64,000 bases of DNA, from the NCBI GenBank assembly GCA_021371855.1, contig JAJFVL010000055.1:124001-188000 (forward strand). Direction: 5' to 3'. The DNA comes from Bacteroidales bacterium (GTDB lineage Bacteria > Bacteroidota > Bacteroidia > Bacteroidales > VadinHA17). Position numbers and translations under genes: made by a program. Positions 4,672-60,896 of this stretch are shown piece after piece (the stretch's first letter is position 1; each line of letters begins with the position of its first letter). The notes below the pieces were generated by a model. That model worked only from the letters and a program-made list of their open reading frames with translations. It ran no database searches and had not been told where the DNA came from.

Positions 4672-6475
4672 CCCTTCCATGCTTATGCACAATATCTTCA
4701 GGCCTGACATGCTGGCCTTTATTATACCAAAAAAAGAAATCCTTCTGTCGTCTCTTATCTTCAATATTTCTTGCCACAAAAACCTTCTTCCCTGTATATG
4801 GATTAAAACCGGTGTAATACATCAGGGTTGAAAGAGTCATCGGTGTGGGAGTAAAATCCTGTACCTGTTCAGGTTTTATGCCCAGACTTTTCACCTCGCC
4901 GGCCAGCTCTTTCATGTCAGAATCCTGACATCCGGGATGTGATGAAATGAAATACGGGATGATTTCATACTTAAGATCATGTTTTGTTTTTATGTTATCG
5001 AACCGTTTCTTAAGCTTCTTAAAAAGATCAAAGGGGGGCTTACGCATATTGAATAAAACACCCGGGGAGGTATGCTCCGGAGCGACTTTCAATCTTCCTG
5101 AGACATGATTCACAATAAGCTCATCAAGATATTCGTTTTCAATTCTCCCGGCACTTTTATTCCATTCGGGGAATAACAAATCGTAACGAACTCCGCTACC
5201 GATAAATGATTTTTTTATTCCCTCCATACTGTCTACTTTCCTATATAAATCCAAAAGAGATTTATGGCTGGCATTCAGGTTTTTGCAGACAGCAGGCCAG
5301 ATACACGAAGGTTTCGGACAAGTCTTGCACAGTTTCTGATCCTTTCCTTTCATCCTGTACATATTGGCAGATGGCCCGCCAAGATCTGACAGATAACCCT
5401 TAAAATCAGGCAATTCGGAAATTTTCTTTACTTCATTCAGTATTGATTTTTCTGACCTGCTTATTATCTGTTTGCCCTGATGTGCAGCTATTGCGCAAAA
5501 ACTGCATCCGCCAAAACATCCACGATGAATGTTAACGGAATATTTTATCATTTCGTAAGCAGGAATATCTTCCTTCTTATTATACTTTGGATGTGGCATG
5601 AACATGTATGGAAGATCGAATGTGCGATCAGCTTCATCTTCGTCCATGGGAGGGAAAGGTGGATTGACTATTATTTTTGAATCACCCATCTGCTCATTCA
5701 GCCTGGCTGATTCAATTTTATTCGATTCTTTCTCAAACTTCACAAAATTTTCAGCAAACAGGTTTTTATCCTTTACACATTGTTCAAATGAATTAAGTGT
5801 GATGTCTTTCCATTGTTTCTGAATGGGTAAGCGGTCGCCCTTTTGTGTAATGATTGCAGTCTGCTGAATCGTTTTAAGCGACGAGAAAGGTACTCCTTTC
5901 TCTAACAGTCTTAACAGCTCCCGCAAAGGTTGTTCACCCATTCCGTATATCAGCATATCAGCTCCGCTGCTCATAAGGATGGAAGGTTCCAGTTTGTCCT
6001 TCCAGTAATCATAATGCGTAAGCCGGCGCATGGAAGCTTCGATTCCTCCCAGAACCACAGGAACATCCGGAAACAGCTCCCTGAGAATTTTTGTATAGAC
6101 AATTGTGGGATAATCCGGGCGGAAACCTGCTTTGCCTCCTGGGGTGTATGCATCATCAGATCGCAGGCGACGGGCAGCAGTATAATGGTTGACCATTGAA
6201 TCCATATTGCCGGCAGTAACACCAAAAAAATATTTTGGCTTACCCAGTTTACGGAAATCCCGTAGATCGTCTTTCCAGTTTGGCTGAGGGACAATTGCAA
6301 CATGGAATCCTTCAGCTTCAATAACCCTTCCGATAACTGCCGGACCGAATGACGGATGATCGACATAAGCATCACCACTGAAGATGATTACATCAATTTC
6401 GTCCCAACCGAGTATTTCAACCTCTTTCTTAGTTGTAGGAAGCCATTGTTTATTAAATATCGGTTTAGTTTTCAC
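4652..6475 (-). CDS. YgiQ family radical SAM protein
   Basis: A 607-residue radical SAM enzyme of the YgiQ (UPF0313) family. An N-terminal B12-binding-like region (SGDAYVDHPSFG, GGIEASMRR) precedes the radical SAM motif in HRGCFGGCSFC, which carries the CxxxCxxC cluster ligands. The conserved tail contains VQDFTPTPMT and YYTGFNPYTGK. The reaction of this family is not established to my knowledge. The start is GTG at 6475, with no in-frame ATG before the conserved N-terminus. It is convergent with hydC and divergent from the patatin gene. Confidence 0.92.
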   Translation of the reverse strand: MKTKPIFNKQWLPTTKKEVEILGWDEIDVIIFSGDAYVDHPSFGPAVIGRVIEAEGFHVAIVPQPNWKDDLRDFRKLGKPKYFFGVTAGNMDSMVNHYTAARRLRSDDAYTPGGKAGFRPDYPTIVYTKILRELFPDVPVVLGGIEASMRRLTHYDYWKDKLEPSILMSSGADMLIYGMGEQPLRELLRLLEKGVPFSSLKTIQQTAIITQKGDRLPIQKQWKDITLNSFEQCVKDKNLFAENFVKFEKESNKIESARLNEQMGDSKIIVNPPFPPMDEDEADRTFDLPYMFMPHPKYNKKEDIPAYEMIKYSVNIHRGCFGGCSFCAIAAHQGKQIISRSEKSILNEVKKISELPDFKGYLSDLGGPSANMYRMKGKDQKLCKTCPKPSCIWPAVCKNLNASHKSLLDLYRKVDSMEGIKKSFIGSGVRYDLLFPEWNKSAGRIENEYLDELIVNHVSGRLKVAPEHTSPGVLFNMRKPPFDLFKKLKKRFDNIKTKHDLKYEIIPYFISSHPGCQDSDMKELAGEVKSLGIKPEQVQDFTPTPMTLSTLMYYTGFNPYTGKKVFVARNIEDKRRQKDFFFWYNKGQHVRPEDIVHKHGREKRNRD

Positions 6476-50142: not shown

Positions 50143-52266
50143 ATGAAATCATCACATACCCGCAGACATTTCATTAAAACGTCAGCCATTAATGCCATCG
50201 GAATTGGTTTAGCAAGTAATCTGCCTGTTCCGGGAACAACTTTTTTATCAAGGGAAAGCAGGCCGGAAATCACTAATGATCAAAATCTTAAATTGCCATT
50301 TATCCCCAAACGGGCTGCCAGTTGGTGGTGCGACCTGGAAGATCTTCTTTGGCCTCAAAAGAAAGTTACTGACAGTATAAAACGCAGGGCTGAATCTTTT
50401 GCAAATGCCAAAATTGATACTGCAATTAATTTTGGTTTTCACATACGTTTTGATTTTTCAAATTATTTTGGTCAATTACATGGTTATTACGCAAATGTAT
50501 GCGAAGAATTACATAAATATGATATAAAATTTATAGATCACTATTCGTGTAACCATGTAGAACGCCCAAGGGGAGAAGAGGAATTCAGAAAGTTACATAA
50601 AGGTCAACGACATCATATATTATTGTTTCATGATCCTGTTGCGGCACAATATGCACAATATGAAGGGCATTTTTTTAATGATATTTGCGAAGTTGATCTA
50701 CGTGACGGAACCAGGGGGTATGCCAGACAATATCAGATGGAGGCCTTCTGCCATAATAATCCGGAATTTCTTGATATGCATAAAAAATACCTGCAAAGGC
50801 TTATGAAAGAAGTCCCATTTGATGGTATTGAAGTTGATGACATGTGTGATTATGCCGGACTTACAACATGCGGATGTGACTATTGCAGGGAGAGATTTAA
50901 AAGGGATTATGGGCATGAGATTCCAGCTTTTGGAGAAAAATATTTTTGGGGAGACACAACCAAAAACATGCTCCTCTGGGGAAATTATGAAAATCCGGTC
51001 TTCAGGGACTGGATAAGGATGAAGATTGAGTCTGTTGCTGATCATGTAAAAATGGTAAAAGGTATCGTTGGCAATAAACCCCTGATGTCTTGCTGCTCAA
51101 GTACAGGTCCGATAACACTGAATTCCATTGCACTAAACCTGGAAAAGCTTTCTCCTTACCTGGATTTTTTCATGCTTGAAAATGTTGGTACAAACATCAA
51201 TTGCGTAAATTGGGTCAGAATGGATGCTGAAGCCCTGCAACAAAAAGATATTGCACAAAAGAGAGGGAATGCCCCTGCCATGGCTTTAAGTTATACTATT
51301 TATGATAAAGGCGGTTACCTCGGCTGGTGTCTGAGCCGTTTCTGGGGTGTTGCAAACTGGAGCAGCACTCTCAATCAAAGGCTTGAAGAAGATCCCCCTG
51401 ACGCGATGGAAATAGAGGATATAATAGGTAATTACAATAACTGGGAGATAAAGAACAGTGATCTTAATTATACCAACGGAAAAGACTTTATTGAAGTCCG
51501 GCTGGTAAGCAGTAGTTTTTGCAGAGATAATGGCTGGCATGGCTCTGATGGATTTGAACAATGGGATAAGGTTAAAGCATGGTCTGCCAGTCTGGTTAAG
51601 AAAAACATTGGCTATCGCTTCGTACGTTCCATGGAGCTGTCCAATCCCATTGAATTGTGCAAGGATAACACTCCTTTAATTTTAGATGGACTGGGATGTG
51701 TTTCGGATAATCAATTCAGCTCAGTTCAAAACTATCTTTCAAAAGGGGGAACAGCATGGCTTGCCTTGCCATTTGGAACCCATGATGAAAAAGGTTATAA
51801 AAGGAGTGTTCCCCTCTCGGAAAAACTATTAAAATCAAGGTACAAAAATCTTGTCATTATAGATAGTGCAACATCTTCCAATCCCATTGAAACACTTATT
51901 CAAAATGGCATGTTTCGTCCTGCATTAAAACAGTTGTCGGGTGATACACGATGGGCCGCAAGAATAAGATTTTACGAATATAAACCAGTTATTCATTTTA
52001 TGAATACCGCACTTATTGCAATACCTCATCCCATAATAAAAGATAATTCCGGAGTTCCGATATTGAAAGATATTGAATCAGAAATTAGAGATAATGACAT
52101 TACTTATGAATTCAGTTCAAAAAAAATTTCATTATCCCGGTTATCATTAAAGAGCCCTGAACTGGGAGAGGAAACAAGAAAAGTGGATATCCATGAGACA
52201 AAAAATGGTTACTCAACCATAAAGATCAATCTCGATGGAGTGAAAGTCTATGCTCTCGTTCAATAA
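50143..52266 (+). CDS. Tat-exported glycoside-hydrolase-like protein
   Basis: A 707-residue protein with a twin-arginine signal (SSHTRRHFIKTSAINAIG at the N-terminus). The body looks like a TIM-barrel hydrolase: FHIRFDFSNYFG, FIDHYSCNHVE, FDGIEVDDMCDYAG and a CGCDYCRERF Cys cluster near residue 245, followed by a probable Rossmann-like or beta-galactosidase-trimerisation-type domain (about 440-600) and a small beta domain. It resembles hypothetical glycosyl hydrolase families (GHL6 or GH42-like). The substrate is unknown. No polysaccharide-utilisation genes (SusC/SusD) are near. Confidence 0.65.
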   Translation: MKSSHTRRHFIKTSAINAIGIGLASNLPVPGTTFLSRESRPEITNDQNLKLPFIPKRAASWWCDLEDLLWPQKKVTDSIKRRAESFANAKIDTAINFGFHIRFDFSNYFGQLHGYYANVCEELHKYDIKFIDHYSCNHVERPRGEEEFRKLHKGQRHHILLFHDPVAAQYAQYEGHFFNDICEVDLRDGTRGYARQYQMEAFCHNNPEFLDMHKKYLQRLMKEVPFDGIEVDDMCDYAGLTTCGCDYCRERFKRDYGHEIPAFGEKYFWGDTTKNMLLWGNYENPVFRDWIRMKIESVADHVKMVKGIVGNKPLMSCCSSTGPITLNSIALNLEKLSPYLDFFMLENVGTNINCVNWVRMDAEALQQKDIAQKRGNAPAMALSYTIYDKGGYLGWCLSRFWGVANWSSTLNQRLEEDPPDAMEIEDIIGNYNNWEIKNSDLNYTNGKDFIEVRLVSSSFCRDNGWHGSDGFEQWDKVKAWSASLVKKNIGYRFVRSMELSNPIELCKDNTPLILDGLGCVSDNQFSSVQNYLSKGGTAWLALPFGTHDEKGYKRSVPLSEKLLKSRYKNLVIIDSATSSNPIETLIQNGMFRPALKQLSGDTRWAARIRFYEYKPVIHFMNTALIAIPHPIIKDNSGVPILKDIESEIRDNDITYEFSSKKISLSRLSLKSPELGEETRKVDIHETKNGYSTIKINLDGVKVYALVQ

Positions 52267-52389
52267 TCGTACCATCTTACGCGGTTTTTTGACTCTTTTT
52301 CACGGTTCCATACGCACCGCAAAACAGGTTCATTTTCACGACTATATGCAAGTTTTAGACAGCCCATTACTTTCGTTACTCACTCAAAA

Positions 52390-52452
52390 ATAGCAATTTT
52401 TTCTTTTAATTGAGACCTATACTAATGATTTTCAGTTAAAAGAAAAAGCTAT
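52390..52452. repeat. Imperfect palindrome P0 at the AbrB-like gene stop
   Basis: An arm reading TAGCAATTTTTTCTTTTAA (52390-52408) pairs imperfectly with TTAAAAGAAAAAGCTA further right, ending at the AbrB-like stop codon. It may terminate that gene, or belong to the foldback series of this region. Confidence 0.5.
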
Positions 52453-52631
52453 TCAGATTTCCAGTCACGTATTATGATCCTGTCCTGGTAAAGTCTCACA
52501 TCAATCTTTTGTTTTTCTTTCCATTTAAGTTTCCGGATGTACTCAATTGGGATTGTTACATAATAACTCGTTCCTCCTGATGCTTTTGTCAGGCTCCGGA
52601 TGTTTCTTTCTTCGGTTTTCCTGGTTGTCAT
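52449..52631 (-). CDS. SpoVT-AbrB-like DNA-binding protein
   Basis: A 60-residue protein with a swapped-hairpin AbrB pattern: SLTKASGGTSYYVTIPIEYI, LKWKEKQKIDVRLYQDRI. Such proteins act as antitoxins or transition-state regulators. ATG 52631 is preferred to a TTG six codons upstream. No toxin gene is adjacent. It lies at the left edge of the palindrome island, so it may bind there, but that is a guess. Confidence 0.7.
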   Translation of the reverse strand: MTTRKTEERNIRSLTKASGGTSYYVTIPIEYIRKLKWKEKQKIDVRLYQDRIIIRDWKSE

Positions 52632-52695
52632 GACATTTAAGATTTGCAACGTATTAAGATACGGTTTTTAATACGTTGATGTGACATCTGTCCTC

Positions 52696-52736
52696 GTGGC
52701 AGCTGGCCCTTTCATATCCCTTCTGCCAGCTGCCAC
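52696..52736. repeat. Palindrome P1, perfect 12-bp stem
   Basis: GTGGCAGCTGGC (52696-52707) and GCCAGCTGCCAC (52725-52736) form a perfect hairpin with a 17-nt loop. No T tract follows on the plus strand. Confidence 0.9.
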
Positions 52737-52758
52737 TCCGCGCGCCGTCCCTTCTACC

Positions 52759-52903
52759 TTTATTTTTGTCATGGTTTTTGTAGCTTATGCTCTTGCAGCA
52801 CATGCCGGCTTTTGTTTTTGTGTAAATGGATCTTTAGAGGTAAAAACAAAACCGGCAAGAGCTGCTCCACCGTTCCTGTACAAAAACACACGCCAAAAAT
52901 AAA
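52759..52903. repeat. Long imperfect palindrome P2
   Basis: Nested paired blocks: TTTATTTTTG (52759) with CAAAAATAAA (52894); GTTTTTGTA (52774) with TACAAAAAC (52879); GCCGGCTTTTGTTTTT (52804) with AAAAACAAAACCGGC (52842), one base unpaired. Its sequence recurs inverted in P7. Confidence 0.85.
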
Positions 52904-52920
52904 TGCCCAAAGCTATATTT

Positions 52921-52999
52921 ACATAATGCAAGTTATACGCAGCCTATTTTCAGCGGTATTGATTTTTGTGTTTCGGCTGGCCTATAACTGGCATTATGT
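52921..52999. repeat. Imperfect palindrome P3 with ACATAATGC ends
   Basis: ACATAATGCAAGTTATA (52921-52937) pairs with TATAACTGGCATTATGT (52983-52999) over 17 bp with one mismatch. The 9-mer ACATAATGC recurs at 53515-53523 in P6. Confidence 0.9.
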
Positions 53000-53108
53000 A
53001 CTTCGGGCTCCGCCAAATAGCCGCACTCCCTCCCCGCCGGTCCCGGGAACCAAAACCGCAAAAAAGCAAAGCAAAGGTATACAAGCTCCACACTGGCCGA
53101 CCCTCTGT

Positions 53109-53180
53109 AAAAAAGCAAGGCCAAGACAAGCGCCGATAATGTTTAATTGATTTTAAAGGTATCGGCGGCCTTGCTTTTTT
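53109..53180. repeat. Palindrome P4, 14-bp plus 7-bp stem
   Basis: AAAAAAGCAAGGCC (53109-53122) and GGCCTTGCTTTTTT (53167-53180) pair perfectly; GCCGATA (53132) and TATCGGC (53160) extend the stem, leaving nine unpaired bases only on the left arm. The right end is T-rich, so a terminator function is also possible. Confidence 0.9.
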
Positions 53181-53263
53181 TCCACGCTTGCATGTGGCGA
53201 GAGCTTTCTTTTTTTCCGGTTTTTCTTTTGAGGTAATGGTTACAATAAAACTTTAAAGGATGG

Positions 53264-53440
53264 CTTAACTTTGGCTTAGATACAGACCCAGCAAGCGCGA
53301 GGGGAAGTGTCAAGGTTTCCGGCAAAAAGTTTTTTACCGCTAAATTTCAATTGAAAGAAAAAAGTTTTTGTCAGGAACCCGAAGGGCTTGACCTTGACTG
53401 TGGGGAGGTGGAAGCTATCTTGACTAAGCCAAAGTTTAAG
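53264..53440. repeat. Long palindrome P5 centred on TTTCAATTGAAA
   Basis: The outer stem CTTAACTTTGGCTTAG (53264-53279) pairs with CTAAGCCAAAGTTTAAG (53424-53440) with one extra base on the right arm. Inner blocks GTCAAGG / CCTTGAC and CAAAAAGTTTTTT / AAAAAAGTTTTTG continue toward the centre at 53345-53356. Confidence 0.85.
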
Positions 53441-53511
53441 TCAACTACCGAGGATTGCTCGGCTGTTCCAGGAGTTTTCTTCTGGGTGAGCGCGTCAGGC
53501 TGCGGGGCTAT

Positions 53512-53601
53512 TTAACATAATGCTATTATAGGCCTGCACCGTAAAGCTTATTTCTGACCGGGATTATTCTTTGCAGCGCCTATAATGCCGTGTTATGTTA
53601 A
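53512..53601. repeat. Imperfect palindrome P6, inverted relative of P3
   Basis: TTAACATAA (53512-53520) with TTATGTTAA (53593-53601), and ATTATAGGC (53525-53533) with GCCTATAAT (53578-53586), pair with unequal bulges. The left arm matches the reverse complement of the right arm of P3. Confidence 0.85.
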
Positions 53602-53616
53602 TATAGCTTGGGAGGA

Positions 53617-53730
53617 TTATTTTTTGGCCGTGCTTTTTGTTTGCAGGGCCGGGGCGGCTCTTTGATCCCGACGTAAGGAGTGGGCAATGTGCCGCACGTG
53701 TGTTGGGACAAAAAGCATGACAAAAAATAA
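53617..53730. repeat. Imperfect palindrome P7, inverted relative of P2
   Basis: TTATTTTTTG (53617) with CAAAAAATAA (53721) and TGCTTTTTGT (53631) with ACAAAAAGCA (53708) form the stem. The right arm, read on the minus strand, gives GTCATGCTTTTTGT, matching GTCATGGTTTTTGT at 52768-52781 in P2 at 13 of 14 positions. Confidence 0.85.
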
Positions 53731-53753
53731 ACCGGCAGGGCACGGCGTGGGGA

Positions 53754-53809
53754 GGGGCAAAAAAGACCGTGCAAGCCCTGAAGCATGAAGGGCGGGGATT
53801 TTTTGCCCC
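53754..53809. repeat. Palindrome P8, 11-bp perfect outer stem
   Basis: GGGGCAAAAAA (53754-53764) with TTTTTTGCCCC (53799-53809), plus the inner pair GCCCT / AGGGC. It ends 6 bp before the ORF6N gene stop codon and could double as that gene's terminator. Confidence 0.85.
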
Positions 53810-53815
53810 GCGGAT

Positions 53816-54370
53816 TTATTCTTTTTCTGAAGTTTTAAATCCTATCCGGGGCCTGTTCTTATATTCCAGTTCTTCCTGTTTTGCTTTTTCAAACTGTTTG
53901 AGATATTCAAAAATCAGCATGATCTTATCATCATGCTCCGATATACTGTTTTCAATCTGTTCTAGTCTTATCAGTATATCTTTGTGCGTGAGCAGCATTT
54001 CTCTCATTTTGGTAAAAATTCTCACGACCTGTATATTTACCTGGACTGCTCTTTCACTATTAAGTACACTTGCCAACATCAATACTCCATGTTCTGTAAA
54101 TGCAAAGGGAGGAATACGTAAACCCATTATTTCCCTATTGGAAGTGCCAAAATTGCTTCTCCATTCTTCCATTTCCTCTTTTGTGAGTTCAAACATAAAG
54201 TCTTCAGGAAAGCGAGATCTGTTTCGTTTTACCTGTTCTTTCAACCGTCTTGTCTCAACTCCGTAAAGCTCCGCCAGATCCCTGTCCATCATTACTTTTT
54301 GTCCCCTGATGAGATATATCTTACTCATGATTAACTCATCTGGTACCATCAACTTATTTTCCTCATTCAT
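53816..54370 (-). CDS. ORF6N-domain protein
   Basis: A 184-residue protein. The N-terminal ORF6N domain (about 10-95) has KIYLIRGQKVMMDRDLAELY, ETRRLKEQVKRN, RFPEDFMFEL and FTEHGVLMLASVLNSERAVQ, as in phage Rha/KilA-N-related regulators. A helical C-terminal half is likely a coiled coil. Such genes are common in phages and mobile elements. ATG 54370 is preferred to an upstream TTG. Confidence 0.88.
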   Translation of the reverse strand: MNEENKLMVPDELIMSKIYLIRGQKVMMDRDLAELYGVETRRLKEQVKRNRSRFPEDFMFELTKEEMEEWRSNFGTSNREIMGLRIPPFAFTEHGVLMLASVLNSERAVQVNIQVVRIFTKMREMLLTHKDILIRLEQIENSISEHDDKIMLIFEYLKQFEKAKQEELEYKNRPRIGFKTSEKE

Positions 54371-54400
54371 AGGTTTGATTTTCAACGATAAATATAATAG

Positions 54401-55399
54401 TTAAAATTGGGTGTCGCATTTTGCGATACCCAATTTATTATTTAATGGATGACATTTCTCCAGTTTGTTTTTCAGGCTCTCAAGATTACTTCCCAGGTAA
54501 CGCTCTGTTGAGCTTACCCTCTTGTGACCTGCCATATATTGAACCTGCCGCAGGTTCATTGTCTTGAGCCAGTATGTTATGACACTCTGTCTTATCTTAA
54601 TTGCGTTGATGATACAGGGATTTATCTTCTTTATCTCCCGGAACAGGTGCCAAAGACTGTTTTTAATGTTCTCACTGCCATTGATACTGATAAATAGCTG
54701 GCTTTCTATCCGTGTTTTATTGATTCGATCAGGTTTACGAGCAGGACCAGGCTGATTGATCCCTTTGATTATAGCAGGACGTGTCACAGTTAAGTAATCA
54801 TGCAGCTCCATCACCTGGAATGGTCTTAATTCAAGGTTCCTGCTGTTTCTTCTCCGGTCACCCGGGACATGTATCTTTCCTTCTTTTAAACGTACATCTC
54901 CTGTATCAAGCCGTTTCAGGTCGTCCGTTGTAACTCCCTGGTAAATGAGTAATCCTAAAATAACTCTGTTCCGTTTTTGCCTTAATGTAATTGTCGGGTA
55001 ATCCTGGTAAAGGCTTTCCAGTTCTTTAAAGTTTATGATCCCGCTTATTATCTTATGACAGGATCCCTTTAAATACAGGTTGGTTGCAGGATTTATGATA
55101 AGCTGGTCATGCGTCTTCAGATATTCGTAATAATCCCTGATGCTGCTTAGCTTCCTGTTTATATGAGTATTGCTGTCACTTTCCAGCTTGCAGTAATCAA
55201 TAAAGTTCAGAAGATCATTGTAACTTGCATCTTCCACCTGTAATCCTTCTTCGGCAAGCCATTTCAGATAATACCCTGCATAGTTGCTCTTCTGCCGTAT
55301 AGTGTTTTCCCCGTTACCAAGATCCTTCAGGTAACTCTTAAAACCCTTCAACCTGATCATGATCTCATTGTTAAAACTGTATTCTGGCCTTTTATTCAT
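54401..55399 (-). CDS. Tyrosine recombinase-like protein lacking Arg I and box-II His
   Basis: A 332-residue protein. The N-terminal SAM-like domain (about 10-110) is followed by a catalytic-fold domain. GHKRVSSTERYLG supplies the His and Tyr (His292, Tyr301), and IKIRQSVIT keeps the second Arg (Arg270). The usual GLRxxEL block reads YQGVTTDDLKRL, so the first Arg is Thr157, and the box-II His is Ile267. It may have altered catalysis or act as a partner of the recombinase directly upstream. ATG 55399 overlaps the upstream stop codon by 8 bp, implying coupled translation; the frame also opens earlier (55447). A hairpin covers its last codons. Confidence 0.85.
   Translation of the reverse strand: MNKRPEYSFNNEIMIRLKGFKSYLKDLGNGENTIRQKSNYAGYYLKWLAEEGLQVEDASYNDLLNFIDYCKLESDSNTHINRKLSSIRDYYEYLKTHDQLIINPATNLYLKGSCHKIISGIINFKELESLYQDYPTITLRQKRNRVILGLLIYQGVTTDDLKRLDTGDVRLKEGKIHVPGDRRRNSRNLELRPFQVMELHDYLTVTRPAIIKGINQPGPARKPDRINKTRIESQLFISINGSENIKNSLWHLFREIKKINPCIINAIKIRQSVITYWLKTMNLRQVQYMAGHKRVSSTERYLGSNLESLKNKLEKCHPLNNKLGIAKCDTQF
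54404..54436. repeat. 15-bp hairpin over the 3' end of the second recombinase gene
   Basis: AAATTGGGTGTCGCA (54404-54418) pairs with TGCGATACCCAATTT (54422-54436) with one mismatch and a 3-nt loop. It encodes the last residues of the protein. No long T run follows on the minus strand, so it is an imperfect terminator candidate or a recombination site. Confidence 0.85.
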
Positions 55400-56270
55400 T
55401 TGCAAGATGCGTATAGATTTGTGTTGATTCCAGGCTGATATGGCCAAGAAAACGGCCTACTTCTTCAAGTGTCAGCCCACTTTGCAGTAAATGTGTGGCT
55501 ATCGAGTGCCGTAACGTGTGAAGGCCTACAGGCTTATTAATACCGGCTGCCTGCGCCAACTTCTGCAACCTGGATATCACCTGGTTACCACATAACCGCT
55601 TCCCCCTCATGCTTAAAAATAATGCTTCCGGATTCAGTCCTCCCTTAAAGCTCCGGATATGTTCCCTCCCTTGAAGAATATACGCTTCCAGATCTTCTGT
55701 AACGACTCCGGTCATGGGGACATATCGTTCCCTGTTCCCTTTTCCTGATCGTACAAAAACAAGTCTTTCTTTAAACAAAACATCTTTCACGTCAAGGCTT
55801 GTCCCTTCGCTGCGCCTCAGTCCACATCCGTAGTAAATACTCAGCATTGCCCTGTCACGCACCCCAAGATAATCACTGCCACAAGCTTTGTAAAGGGCTT
55901 TGATCTCTTCTCCGGTTAAAATGATCTTTGGGTTTTCTTTATCTGGCCTTGTCTTGACTGTGACCTCAAAAAAGGGCTTGCCTGTCTCCTGGAGGTACCT
56001 GCTAAAACGTCTCAGCGCATTAAAGTTGCTATTCATGTAATTATCCGACAGTCCGCCTGTGCGCCTTCGGTTACCACGTTTCTGCAGGTATTTGTAATAA
56101 CCTTCCAGGGTTTTGATGTTGACCGCTTCAAGTTCTGTTATCTTCAATGTTTTCAGATAAAAGAAAAAATCTCTCACGTAATGTGTTGAGAGATATACCG
56201 TACTACCAGCGTAACCCAGTGTTTTAAGCCACTTTTCGAAGGATTCTTCTATTATAACGTTTATATCCAT
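55392..56270 (-). CDS. Tyrosine recombinase (integrase/XerD type)
   Basis: A 292-residue recombinase with the full catalytic set: Arg152 (GLRRSE), Lys177 (SGKGNRERYVP), His251 and Arg254 (HTLRHSIATHL), His277 (LGHISLESTQIYTH) and Tyr286. The N-terminal SAM-like domain covers about 5-100. It cuts and rejoins DNA through a covalent 3'-phosphotyrosine. It is probably the active partner of the downstream, overlapping recombinase-like gene and could catalyse excision and integration of the element. It is upstream of that gene and downstream of the primase-type gene. Confidence 0.93.
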   Translation of the reverse strand: MDINVIIEESFEKWLKTLGYAGSTVYLSTHYVRDFFFYLKTLKITELEAVNIKTLEGYYKYLQKRGNRRRTGGLSDNYMNSNFNALRRFSRYLQETGKPFFEVTVKTRPDKENPKIILTGEEIKALYKACGSDYLGVRDRAMLSIYYGCGLRRSEGTSLDVKDVLFKERLVFVRSGKGNRERYVPMTGVVTEDLEAYILQGREHIRSFKGGLNPEALFLSMRGKRLCGNQVISRLQKLAQAAGINKPVGLHTLRHSIATHLLQSGLTLEEVGRFLGHISLESTQIYTHLANE

Positions 56271-56353
56271 TACAATGGGTTTTTAGTGCCATATACTGCA
56301 TTTTTCATCTTGTGCTATCCACTGCCTTAAACTTCCTGAGAGATAATTATATG

Positions 56354-56391
56354 AGTGGATAACTGAGGCTATTATCCACCTGTTATCCACA
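56354..56391. promoter_or_regulatory. Cluster of three DnaA-box-like sequences (possible origin)
   Basis: TTATCCACA (56383-56391) is a perfect TTATNCACA match; TTATCCACC (56372-56380) and the inverted TTATCCACT (56354-56362) differ at the last base only. They sit in the 121-bp gap between the primase-type gene and the recombinase, next to an AT-rich stretch near 56341. The position suggests a replication origin. Confidence 0.6.
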
Positions 56392-59085
56392 CTAACCACT
56401 GATTTTGCTTTTTATTTTTTCCAGAACGTCATCAAACACGCTGCTAATGTTAGTGTTAAGCTTCTGGTAATCATCAAAATTTATTACTTCATATTCATAG
56501 CCTCTCTTGTACCGATCGCCTCCAACAGGTTTTATATACCCGTATCTTACAAGCTGCAAAAGGTAATATTTAAGATTACTGGGATTCATGCGGAACGATT
56601 CCCGTACCTGGGAAGTAAAAAAACTTGCCTTCTGCTCCGTGAGGATCCACCTCTTTAGTCTCTCAAAGAAGCTCCGGCACTCGCCCGATAGTTCATCACT
56701 CTTTGCAAGAAGAACGTCCTTAAGCAGACGGTTTGCCCACTCTATATCTTCCAGAGTGGTCTCAATATATTGCTCCCCGGTCTTTGGATCTGTCTTTACT
56801 TCCCTCTGGTACTGGTGGTAAAATGTGATTGTCTCTATGGTTGCCAGATAGTGGGTATTTGTTCTCAGGGGCTTAAATATATAATCCGGAAGCTTCAGGT
56901 ATTCTGCAAAAGGATTTCTCACCGCTACGGGTCTTAACACCATCTGCATATCTTTAAAGAACTCCTTCAGATCGTCTTCCTCTTTGGTGTTTACCTTCCC
57001 GGCAGATAGCTTCCGCTGGTATTCCATAACCTGTTCCTTATGCTCCTTACTGTTATCCAGATAAATAAGCAAACTGCGGTTAGCGTTATCCTCATAAAGC
57101 TTTTCTTTTGTGGTGGTACCTGCAAGACAGATTGGTCCTTCAACATGCAGGGTTATTGTTCTCAGGTTTCCCTTACTGTCTTTAATAGGGACTGTCTTTG
57201 ATATGTGACGTTTGGTCTGTAGCTCCCTGAGTGGATAAAGAACATCCATCGCTCCGTCCATATCTTCAATAAGTACCAGTTTATGTTTTAGCTCCTTCCG
57301 GTCGAAGTAATAAAATGCATTCTCCGATAAGATGGTTATCTCAAGTTTCTCCTGCTCCGGAATAAGCTCTGATACTTTCTCCTGAAGGTAAGTCTTTCCT
57401 GTTCCGGATGATCCCAGGCTTACAATATGAAGCGGTTGCTGCCGGAGCCTTGAAGTAAACACCAGGTACATCAGCAGACGGTTTGTCTCTTCGCCGATCA
57501 TTCCCGTTTTACCAATATCATCATTGGTCCTTTTCATCAGATTAGGCGACTGCAGGTAACGCATGGCACGGATTTTATGCTCTTCACTAAGCTGGCGTAC
57601 CAGAGGCTTTTGCTGCTTCAGGCTTTCTATCCGGCTTAACCGGTAAGCTTCTACCTGCTCCGTGAGTTCTGCAATTGTGCGGCGAAGGATCACGCTGCCA
57701 ATCTCCAGCTGATCACTCGCTTTATTGATAAACTTCTCAAGATAATCTGAGTGGTATAGGTCCAGCGTGTGACGGATTGAATGCAGAGGATCCCCGGTAT
57801 CCCTGCGGTTGATCTTTATTGTGATCCGAAGACGGTCGAGCTGTTGCATGTTCACTCCACCAAGGATGGTGATCTGCAACTCGTCAGTTGTGAAAGTGAT
57901 ATATTCAGGGTTTCGGGTGTTTATCCTGCCTGTTGTTATGATCTTTTCAGGTGCTTCCTTTTCTTCTTTATCTGAAAGGCTTTCATCTGAAAGATTTTCA
58001 GTTAAAAGAAAAAGTTTCCTTTCATTAAGAAGCGAGGTAAATATATCACTGTCATACGTTACCGACAGGCTGTTGATGTCTTCCCCTTCCGGTGTTTCTA
58101 CATAACTTATCTTTACTCCTTGTAAAAGTTGGGATAAGGGTTCTGCATCGTGTTTTATTCCTTCTCTGCCCGCTTTATCGCCATCAAAGAAGAAGATAAT
58201 CTCCTGCAGCTTTTGCAGATCCTTTATCGCTGCCTTATGTTCATCAGTCAGTCCATTTGTGCCGTAACATGCCAGAACACTGTAATTTGTTGCTATTTCC
58301 GGTATCTGAAAAAGACTCGCTGCATCAATGATCGCCTCGGTTAAAATAAGCTTCTTGGTTTCCGGTTTTGGATATCCAGGATAAAGCCCGGTGCGGTTCC
58401 TGAGATAAAAGTGTTTACCTGTTCCGTTTACAGTTTCCAATATGGAACGACCGTAAAGACTTACTATTCTATCATTTCGATCCTTCAGTGGAAAGATAAC
58501 GCACTCCTTTGCAAAGGGTGTATAAGTTGCCATGCCATTAGGTACGCTACAGTTATATGGGATAAGTAGTCCTGCCCTGATACATGCCTTCTGATCTTCT
58601 TCACTCAGCTTACCGTGGTGGTGGAACTGCCCCGAGTTATAACCGGCTTCAAGTAATTCAATGGAAAGGTTTCTCTTTTTCATGTATTCCTTGGGCTTAA
58701 CACTTACCGGGTGACGAAGACCATGTTTAAAGCTCTCGAAGATCTTCGTTAAGATCTCTGTTCTATCTTCCGGTGTCTGATGCGGCTCTGCAGGTTTCTC
58801 CCTGGCCTGTAATGTTACTGGCGGTAACTCCACTATAAGATTCTGTGCTCTCAGGATTGCTTCATGCTTTCCTTTCTTCTCATACCTCTCAATAAACTCT
58901 ATCACATCGCCTGTAGCTCCACAGCCAAAGCAGTTAAAGGTATTTGTCTCAGGGTAGATCTTCAGGCTTGGCTTATCATCATTGTGAAAGGGACATTTTA
59001 TGAAGTGATGACGGTCAGGGTGCAAGCTGTAATGATTCAGGACTGTTTCTATGGAAAGACGCTGTTTGATTTCCTGGATTTCCAT
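56392..59085 (-). CDS. CHC2 zinc finger-Toprim-P-loop ATPase fusion (primase type)
   Basis: An 897-residue protein. The N-terminal CHC2 zinc finger has CPFH and CFGC (Cys31, His34, Cys52, Cys55). The Toprim region (about 245-335) has LILTEAIIDAAS (Glu250) and FFDGD (301-303). The C-terminal ATPase has Walker A GSSGTGKT (558-565) and Walker B LVLIEDMDG, followed by a probable DNA-binding tail. The CHC2-Toprim layout is that of DnaG primases; the ATPase is not the DnaB type. It probably primes replication of the element. ATG 59085 is used; the frame opens to 59130. It is divergent from an Xre gene. Confidence 0.9.
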   Translation of the reverse strand: MEIQEIKQRLSIETVLNHYSLHPDRHHFIKCPFHNDDKPSLKIYPETNTFNCFGCGATGDVIEFIERYEKKGKHEAILRAQNLIVELPPVTLQAREKPAEPHQTPEDRTEILTKIFESFKHGLRHPVSVKPKEYMKKRNLSIELLEAGYNSGQFHHHGKLSEEDQKACIRAGLLIPYNCSVPNGMATYTPFAKECVIFPLKDRNDRIVSLYGRSILETVNGTGKHFYLRNRTGLYPGYPKPETKKLILTEAIIDAASLFQIPEIATNYSVLACYGTNGLTDEHKAAIKDLQKLQEIIFFFDGDKAGREGIKHDAEPLSQLLQGVKISYVETPEGEDINSLSVTYDSDIFTSLLNERKLFLLTENLSDESLSDKEEKEAPEKIITTGRINTRNPEYITFTTDELQITILGGVNMQQLDRLRITIKINRRDTGDPLHSIRHTLDLYHSDYLEKFINKASDQLEIGSVILRRTIAELTEQVEAYRLSRIESLKQQKPLVRQLSEEHKIRAMRYLQSPNLMKRTNDDIGKTGMIGEETNRLLMYLVFTSRLRQQPLHIVSLGSSGTGKTYLQEKVSELIPEQEKLEITILSENAFYYFDRKELKHKLVLIEDMDGAMDVLYPLRELQTKRHISKTVPIKDSKGNLRTITLHVEGPICLAGTTTKEKLYEDNANRSLLIYLDNSKEHKEQVMEYQRKLSAGKVNTKEEDDLKEFFKDMQMVLRPVAVRNPFAEYLKLPDYIFKPLRTNTHYLATIETITFYHQYQREVKTDPKTGEQYIETTLEDIEWANRLLKDVLLAKSDELSGECRSFFERLKRWILTEQKASFFTSQVRESFRMNPSNLKYYLLQLVRYGYIKPVGGDRYKRGYEYEVINFDDYQKLNTNISSVFDDVLEKIKSKISG

Positions 59086-59188
59086 TGTTAATAAAATTTT
59101 ATAATGCTTATTCGCACACAATAATATCAAAACTCTTCATACATAACAAATCAACAATCCTTAAGATATGAACATAGGCATTATATAT

Positions 59189-59220
59189 ATTGCTCAAACA
59201 GTGCATTTAGACTATATTTG
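59189..59220 (+). promoter_or_regulatory. Promoter of the Xre regulator
   Basis: ATTG (59189-59192), a 20-nt spacer and TATATTTG (59213-59220) match the Bacteroidetes promoter pattern and precede the Xre ATG at 59251 by 30 bp. The region is shared with the divergent primase-type gene, so Xre may control both. Confidence 0.65.
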
Positions 59221-59250
59221 TGGTGTTAATAAATACTTTAATCTTTAGTC

Positions 59251-59598
59251 ATGAGCTTCGCACAGAGACTTAAAAAAGCAAGAACCGACAAAGGTTTATC
59301 TCAGACTGAGCTGGGTAGTTTGGTAGGAATACATTATACCCAGATAGGGCGATATGAAAACAAAGGAGCTCAGCCTTCTGCTGATATACTTTCTAAAATA
59401 GCTAATGTACTTGGCGTTTCTTCTGACTTCCTGACCAACGGTTCTACTGAAGAACTGGCAGAAAACACTTTAAGTGATAAAGAGTTGCTTAACCAGTTTA
59501 AGGCTATAGAAAAAATGCCAGATAACGATAAACACATCGTTAAAACTCTTATTGACGCTTTCATCACTAAAAGGAAGGTACAACAGCTGGCCTCGTAA
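59251..59598 (+). CDS. Xre-type helix-turn-helix regulator
   Basis: A 115-residue repressor-like protein. HTH at about 8-60: QRLKKARTDKGLSQTELGSL, HYTQIGRYENKGAQPSADIL. The helical C-terminal half contains LLNQFKAIEKMP. It is divergent from the primase-type gene, as regulators of prophages and mobile elements commonly are. It probably represses the replication or recombination genes. Confidence 0.92.
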   Translation: MSFAQRLKKARTDKGLSQTELGSLVGIHYTQIGRYENKGAQPSADILSKIANVLGVSSDFLTNGSTEELAENTLSDKELLNQFKAIEKMPDNDKHIVKTLIDAFITKRKVQQLAS

Positions 59599-59600
59599 TA

Positions 59601-59628
59601 ACAAAACCCCGGTCTCCCAGGGTTCTGT
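59601..59628 (+). terminator. Hairpin after the Xre gene
   Basis: ACAAAACCC (59601-59609) pairs with GGGTTCTGT (59620-59628), one mismatch, with a T-rich sequence after it. A plausible terminator, but the T run is short. Confidence 0.5.
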
Positions 59629-59686
59629 TTATCTTGCATTGTTTGTTGCAATACTGCAACGTAATTTTCCAGTTTTGGTTTAGAAA

Positions 59687-59705
59687 TAGCACGATAAGTA
59701 GCACG
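59687..59705. repeat. Direct repeat of TAGCACG downstream of the Xre gene
   Basis: TAGCACG at 59687-59693 and 59699-59705, in the 184-bp gap to the Rhs immunity-type gene. It could be part of an element end, but a matching copy at the left side was not found by eye. Confidence 0.4.
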
Positions 59706-59782
59706 GATACATACCTAAATCGGCAGGCAGGCACTTCGTAAATCGCACCAATTAATCTGTAATATCCATGCTATAAGTAGTT

Positions 59783-60133
59783 TTAATTTACTCTTTGTAA
59801 AAATTTATAATCATTATTTACTTTTGGATTGTCCTTTAGAAATTTGACCTTAATTGTATCTCCAACTTTATAGTTATCATTATATACCCATCCTTCATAC
59901 TTTACATTTTTGTATAAAAAAGAATAAGTACATTTAATCTTACCTTTACCTCCTACCTTTTTTTTGTCAATAACAATAGCATTAGTAATTTCTCCATTCT
60001 GATAAACCTGTTTATTAATATTTCCTTTCTTAATTACAGTATAAGCAAACCATGTAATTACAAATAAAAGAACTATTAAAGATATTTTATTTTTATAATT
60101 ATAACTTTCATTCTTCTTTTTATGCTTCATCAT
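59783..60133 (-). CDS. Probable Rhs immunity protein, membrane-anchored
   Basis: A 116-residue protein (115 from the second Met). The N-terminus is Lys/Asn-rich, with one transmembrane segment (about 18-36, ISLIVLLFVITWFAYTV), then a beta domain with CTYSFLYKNVKYEGWVYN and KVGDTIKVKFLKDNPKVN resembling DUF3592-type domains. It overlaps the Rhs fragment stop codon by one base (TAATG), the normal place for an Rhs-CT immunity gene. The function is inferred from position. Confidence 0.65.
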   Translation of the reverse strand: MMKHKKKNESYNYKNKISLIVLLFVITWFAYTVIKKGNINKQVYQNGEITNAIVIDKKKVGGKGKIKCTYSFLYKNVKYEGWVYNDNYKVGDTIKVKFLKDNPKVNNDYKFLQRVN

Positions 60134-60876
60134 TAATTAGTTTTATCCTTAACATATGTAGAAGCCCCATTTGATGCAGTATTTTGAACTGTCTTTGAAA
60201 CCGTTTCATTAGTTTTCTTTGCTGCAGATTGAGCTGCCTTTGCTTCACTAGTTATCTTTTTATTCATTTCTCTACTAACAACTTTCCCTTCTGTCTTTGC
60301 TTCGGTTCTTGCTGCTTTTACAGCTTGATTTACCGTCTTGGCACTTCTTACTTCAACATTCATGGCTGCTGGTGCGGCATCTCCAATTTTCCCTAAAGTC
60401 AATCCAATTGCTGTATTTTTAGTAGTTTCCGAAACAGTATTCACATTAAAATCAACTTTTCCAGAACCATCTTCTGCTGTTTTCCAATCTATGCCATTTC
60501 TAGCTACTTCAGTACCAATGGTTGCTACGGCTTTAACTAATGTGGAAGCTCCACTTGTAACAAAGCCTTCACCTGCCGAAATCATGATATCACCCATGTC
60601 AATATTGGATGTAAAAGAACTTAATCCCCTGCCTTCTAAAGCATTTGCGGCGACTTGACCTCCATATTCAACAAGGGCTCCAACTGCTGCTCCTATAAGA
60701 TTATCAACTCCAAAAATTCTGCCATCCGGGTCTGTAAGTTTTACCGGGTTATTTAATACATAATGATAAGGAGACCAGCTTTCTTGTCCACCATCTTCGC
60801 AACGAGGATCCACAACATGCCACCTTCCTATTTGCGGGTCATAGAACCTCGCGCCGTAATCATAACACTCCCAACC
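60133..60876 (-). pseudogene. 5'-truncated Rhs core with C-terminal toxin tip
   Basis: The frame begins after an in-frame TGA near 60877 with the end of the Rhs core ([31 protein letters not shown]). About 190 variable residues follow that would be the toxin tip, Ala/Lys-rich near the end ([14 protein letters not shown]). The thousand-residue shell that normally precedes the core is missing and no start codon is evident, so it is a displaced C-terminal module or a remnant. I cannot recognise the toxin activity. The immunity-type gene overlaps it by one base. Confidence 0.8.
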
Positions 60877-60896
60877 TCAGAAAAAGTCTGATATTG

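Follow-up and report, generated by a model that had tools for sequence, protein, structure and literature searches.

We consider it likely that each half of the palindrome island at 52759-53730 is a folded, strand-specific recombination site that mimics dif and is probably served by host XerC/XerD. The window, that is, the whole stretch of 64,000 nucleotides analysed here, comes from a Bacteroidetes genome (G000:C62:124001-188000). A search of the open-access literature returned no description of this folded-site family.

Architecture of the palindrome island

Sequence comparison and DNA folding resolve 52759-53730 into a unit present twice in inverted orientation, each copy consisting of a ~105-nt hairpin site and, 3′ of it in the folded orientation, a larger accessory hairpin. 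The preliminary description had claimed foldbacks within an inverted duplication, and the repeats were found where it had placed them. Complementarity between 52763-52781 and 53708-53726 reaches 95% across 19 nt, which include the 13-of-14-base match reported earlier. Inverted-repeat matches were also obtained between 52882-52926 and 53593-53637 (76%, 45 nt) and between 52920-52940 and 52980-53000 (90%, 21 nt). The DNA fold of 52759-53730 has an energy of −194.7 kcal/mol compared with −133.3 ± 6.0 kcal/mol for 20 shuffles (z −10.2), i.e., it lies far beyond all 20 of them. Unit B (52759-53030, minus strand) and unit A (53503-53737) gave z values of −7.0 and −5.4, respectively, and no shuffle matched the real fold energy for the whole island or for either unit. 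As in the preliminary description, no convincing gene is present inside 52759-53730. The palindromes are indeed there, but the bounds first given to them were slightly short, as site A already starts at 53503 and site B extends to ~53025.

Site A (53503-53612, plus strand folded) is a dif-mimic hairpin scoring 71.5 bits in R1 and 72.2 bits in R2 (E 2.6e-11), and both of its arms match the dif of its own genome. Its inverted copy, site B (52907-53025, minus strand folded), scored 58.1 bits in R1 and 59.6 bits in R2 (E 9.7e-9). Site B may be weakened, because a small GC hairpin (GGCGGAGCC) interrupts one of its XerD-like arms. A site variant with such a GC-rich mini-hairpin (GGCGAAGCC/GGCGGAGCC) in the outer stem was seen at 52907-53025 of the window and at 5365-5466 of locus L009 in the same genome. 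The accessory hairpin (domain 1) 3′ of site A, GGCCGTGCTTTTTGT...ACAAAAAGCATGAC with an inner stem, occupies 53613-53737 on the plus strand, and that 3′ of site B occupies 52759-52906 on the minus strand; both were delimited by folding and by relatives. The spacer between the inverted sites (53026-53502) is rich in hairpins, e.g., the stem 53109-53122/53167-53180, as judged from inverted repeats and from a relative, G012, in which its counterpart is found in pieces at 83-87% identity.

A site family with the arms of dif

The starting set comprised relatives of the recombinases in 77 loci. Relatives of the site were searched for in other Bacteroidetes genomes and found: 48 different sites sharing the pattern AAGCTATnTTnACATAAT ... 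TTATAAC ... ATTATGTAAAATAGCC were reached via the recombinase-relative loci, and the site recurs across Bacteroidota. From a plain MAFFT alignment, RNAalifold predicted 16 pairs, 9 of them with compensatory change. For 84 distinct sites, in an alignment fitted to the structure model, 98.2% of cells are paired with 181 two-sided changes, and 0 of 500 shuffles were as good. The folded strand holds 33 G.U and no A.C pairs in the plain MAFFT alignment; the opposite strand holds 36 A.C and no G.T, one doubtful column being left out. Since the stems covary and the G.U pairs are confined to one strand, selection seems to act on a folded single strand, and we infer that DNA, not RNA, is what folds. 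By the pairing adopted, 4/4 or 5/3 bases in the centre remain unpaired, a feature shared with the folded CTXphi attP and with attC; one arm contains an extra base (TTATGTWAAnATAGC), and loops and flanks vary freely among sites.

The sequence CTATAA-TTTATA-TTATGTWAAATAGAA is present as a single copy in most genomes having it, including several complete genomes, and twice in G446; in the genome of the window, contig C14 carries CCTATAATTAATATTATGTAAAATAGAAC at position 153732. Because the sequence form and the copy number fit, we assign it as the host dif. The arm of site A reads GCCTATAA-TAGCA-TTATGTTAAATAGCC. Of the 19 XerC/XerD-arm bases, an average of 16.7 agree in the best match per site (84 sites), compared with 11.8 in dinucleotide shuffles, and at least 16 of the 19 are matched in 80% of the sites and in 0.14% of the shuffles. 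Judged by these matches, both hairpin arms are copies of the host dif, a resemblance that the preliminary description had missed. Next to the XerC arm, many sites have C or G where dif has T, and therefore not every site could pair with dif at that position.

Eleven dif loci were examined for a hairpin or an insert, and at 8 of the 11 no such feature was present. At two of the 11, in G257 and G593, the upstream 5′ arm pairs with dif at 11 of 11 XerD and 6 of 6 XerC positions. In G257 (L231), a 4184-bp insert with a PycC/effector/E2 Pycsar operon and capH/capP-like genes lies exactly at dif. Its left end, TTGTACTATAAT+GTACTTGCG+TTATGTAACTTGAGCTTTG, is the dif XerC arm again followed by the other arm of the site family, and its right end is the 5′ arm pairing with dif. 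Joined in silico, the two ends align in both arms with the intact site L196 of G162, the 3′ arm being identical over 19 nt. G593 has a 543-bp gene-cassette insert bounded on either side by a 14-nt XerC-arm repeat, TTTTGTCTTATAAT, and the hairpin with dif is as in G257. In G147, an ~8-kb ssDNA-phage-like prophage with a rolling-circle Rep bears a folded site at its left end, the one farther from dif. Arms split between insert ends at dif were thus observed in the relatives in G257 and G593; the element of the window lies elsewhere, its ends being in an rhs-type core site. As relatives stand at the ends of a dif-inserted defence-gene cassette, the sites look integron-style, without an integron integrase.

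Two further loci may be recorded here. At the dif of G285 (L236), a direct repeat of ~107 nt ends exactly at the dif XerC arm, and the upstream genes are HipA/HipB-like and helicase-like (names by eye). A presumed cassette array near the dif of G593 was dropped, being tandem copies of a protein-coding repeat.

The surrounding element and other carriers of the site

The island belongs to an integrated mobile element of ~8.6 kb (52264-60861, minus strand), recognized by homology and junctions, whose ends share GATTA (52264-52268 and 60857-60861). Homology to relatives begins exactly at 52264, the left end, and the other end lies at ~60861. The palindromes are therefore internal, and the idea that they are plain element ends was rejected. 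A joined form of the element is seen as head-to-tail junctions in L035 and as a circular contig, L029, with a 127-nt terminal repeat.

The order within the element is Xre regulator, primase-ATPase, two tyrosine recombinases, ORF6N protein, island, AbrB-like ORF and an outward start, with an Rhs core end and orphan tip at the far end. The Xre-type regulator (59251-59598, PF01381) is on the plus strand and the remaining genes are on the minus strand. These are the CHC2/Toprim primase-ATPase (56392-59130; PF01807 and Toprim, ATPase motif by eye), the tyrosine recombinases YR1 (55392-56270; PF00589, 1.5e-41) and YR2 (54401-55447; PF00589, below the XerC/D cut-offs), the accessory ORF6N-domain protein (53816-54385; PF10543, 2e-35) and a small AbrB-like ORF (52449-52631), named by eye and conserved by tblastn in L010, L011, L013 and L088. 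The Rhs core end with its orphan C-terminal tip (60133-60855) was recognized by core-end matches to relatives. At the opposite end, the outward start (MGCLKLAY..., 52260-52367, minus strand), which a TGA ends here, would by its sequence fuse to a displaced Rhs tip. A small palindrome at 52641-52687 (CAACGTATTAA..TTAATACGTTG) recurs many times in the relative G001, in part together with the AbrB-like ORF.

Several relatives are flanked by rhs core copies around TA(C/T)GATTACGG, which codes for ten residues of the protein. In L039, L046, L063, L077 and 52264-60861, the family targets the rhs core and brings an Rhs tip of its own; the other element end has a start (MGCLKL...) and a promoter-like sequence, from which the displaced old tip would be expressed. 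The family looks like a site-specific Rhs tip-swapping element. Tandem Rhs elements 6.7-8 kb apart were noted in L067, L101, L103, L095 and L035. In G000 the element sits outside rhs genes, at a secondary site of GATTA type (GTTATGATTATTG; 52252-52281 and 60850-60880) at the stop codon of the gene 50143-52266.

Downstream sequence was long enough in 53 related elements; of these, 32 have the site within 3 kb downstream of YR2 (median ~0.84 kb), and 21 have no detectable site. An inverted pair is present in 21 of the 53, always in the same order (21/21). The association with the recombinase pair anticipated in the preliminary description is thus real in 32 of 53 elements, but an exclusive tie to YR1/YR2 is unsupported, because sites also occur where the nearby integrase is a different one or where there is none. 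Intact sites were found in several unrelated mobile elements. By covariance search, a site on contig C50 of the same genome adjoins a different integrase, a DUF5906 helicase and RadC, and other RadC elements also carry the site. In flavobacterial elements it stands beside defence and metal-resistance cargo, e.g., DISARM DrmA/DrmB (some names by eye). Two IMG/VR phage contigs with a terminase gene carry it; one other site pattern had no match among viral contigs, and blastn against PLSDB plasmids and INPHARED phages gave no match. On two contigs of G042, direct site repeats ~1 kb apart with small genes between them form cassette-like arrays; by eye, these genes resemble HEPN/nucleotidyltransferase pairs. 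Homology between flavobacterial elements starts or stops at the site, L143, for instance, resembling L188 on the upstream side and L180 on the downstream side, which is weaker support, as alignments of this kind may be anchored by the conserved site itself.

Mechanism, rival readings and known systems

According to the proposed mechanism, one strand would fold with the XerC-like arm (CTATAA) as inner stem and the XerD-like arm (TTATGTWAAATAG) as outer stem, so that the hairpin rebuilds the dif arms and the central bases stay unpaired. The element or cassette would turn single-stranded, the site would fold, and host XerC/XerD would swap one strand, on the XerC side of the centre, with the chromosomal dif or a second site of this kind. 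One end of the insert would then keep the 5′ arm, the loop and the XerC arm, the opposite end would keep the 3′ XerD arm, and the junction would be resolved by replication. The inverted pair would allow folding of either strand of an excised circle. XerC/XerD are the presumed acting enzymes, and the pair in the window is only presumably active, because its own element is inserted at a GATTA-type secondary site, not at dif. Recombination with dif alone does not explain the accessory hairpins or the fixed inverted pairing. The earlier proposal of a foldback recombination site is supported; the replication role offered beside it is less well supported.

Recombination of the folded sites by the element's own YR1/YR2 instead of host XerC/XerD is, in our estimate, unlikely. 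The position of the site downstream of YR2 in 32 of 53 elements (median ~0.84 kb) and the XerD/IntI-like profile of YR1 would suit it. The same site is nevertheless found in elements with unrelated integrases, in RadC and defence elements and in phage contigs without this pair, and the element itself integrates at an rhs-core site of different sequence. Still less probable is a role as inverted ssi/sso-type single-strand initiation sites, primed on each strand with the element's CHC2/Toprim primase. This would accommodate the strand specificity, the primase or replication genes near the site in several elements and the inverted order fixed in 21 of 21 pairs; it would have to work with unrelated primases, however, and predicts neither correctly spaced copies of both dif arms nor dif inserts that end in the two arms.

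A structured RNA transcribed outward from the island centre could also have covarying stems with G.U on one strand, yet we regard it as very improbable. The upstream motif TAnnTTTG (Bacteroidota −7 motif) is not enriched, occurring in sense at 7 of 77 sites and in antisense at 12 of 77, and no Rfam family matches; both results weaken the RNA reading, and freely varying loops and flanks together with arms that match dif also speak against it. The dif junctions argue against both single-strand priming and RNA.

The attC-like logic suggested in the preliminary description holds for the unequal unpaired bases and the strand asymmetry, but not for attC identity. Like attC (PMC4792948), the sites appear as structure-recognized folded single strands with an unpaired centre and an extrahelical (bulged) base in one arm, and a choice of strand shows in their one-strand G.U pairs; in most of the loci listed, the folded strand runs antisense to the cargo, and cassette-like arrays occur (G042). 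Membership among integron attC sites was rejected, as the outer core GTTRRRY/RYYYAAC with its bottom-strand AAC crossover triplet is absent from the consensus outer stem (GGCTATTT / AAATAGCC) and IntI is absent too. No cognate IntI was found: YR1 scores 117.9 bits against the IntI (TIGR02249) cut-off of 265 and 175.7 bits against the XerD cut-off of 329.6, and other host elements carry different integrases. Unlike those of attC, the arms carry host dif sequence, and the split is at the inner XerC side, whereas that of attC is at the outer R box. Acinetobacter pdif sites act as double-stranded 28-mers, and we know of none with a long covarying hairpin. The folded dif-mimic sites differ in having one; gene modules bounded by Xer recombination sites are common to both (PMC7399989).

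CTXphi attP(+) folds through two inverted dif-like sites of unequal centre, and XerC carries out a one-strand exchange with dif (PMC3089051). The arrangement found here is the same as in attP(+)/IMEX, with two inverted dif-like sites whose XerC and XerD arms enclose a short, unequal centre in what would be an ssDNA hairpin; for the relatives in G257 and G593, inserts are seen at the XerC side of dif. The differences are that the present sites belong to Bacteroidota, that their hosts are defence or gene cassettes, rhs-targeting and other mobile elements and not just ssDNA phages, that they often form an inverted pair with accessory hairpins, and that their XerCD dependence is putative. Temperate ssDNA phages of the PhiCjT23/FLiP type reside at the Flavobacterium dif (PMC9719478) and resemble the family in this insertion; the insert with rolling-circle Rep in G147 bears a folded site at its end. 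These phages are described with a palindromic dif motif of 28 nt at each end; the folded-site family also occurs in other mobile elements.

More tentatively, and with somewhat less than even confidence, we suggest that Bacteroidota have a Xer-driven, integrase-free counterpart of the integron, in which XerC/XerD insert dif-mimic cassettes at dif and, within larger mobile elements such as this rhs-targeting one, into each other. The covariance model and the junction sequences supplied make the idea directly testable. If it is true, the cassette cargo would be defence systems, toxin-antitoxin pairs and small genes, folded single-strand recombination sites would have arisen outside integrons and ssDNA phages, and Bacteroidota would move and stack anti-phage defence genes with housekeeping dimer-resolution enzymes alone.
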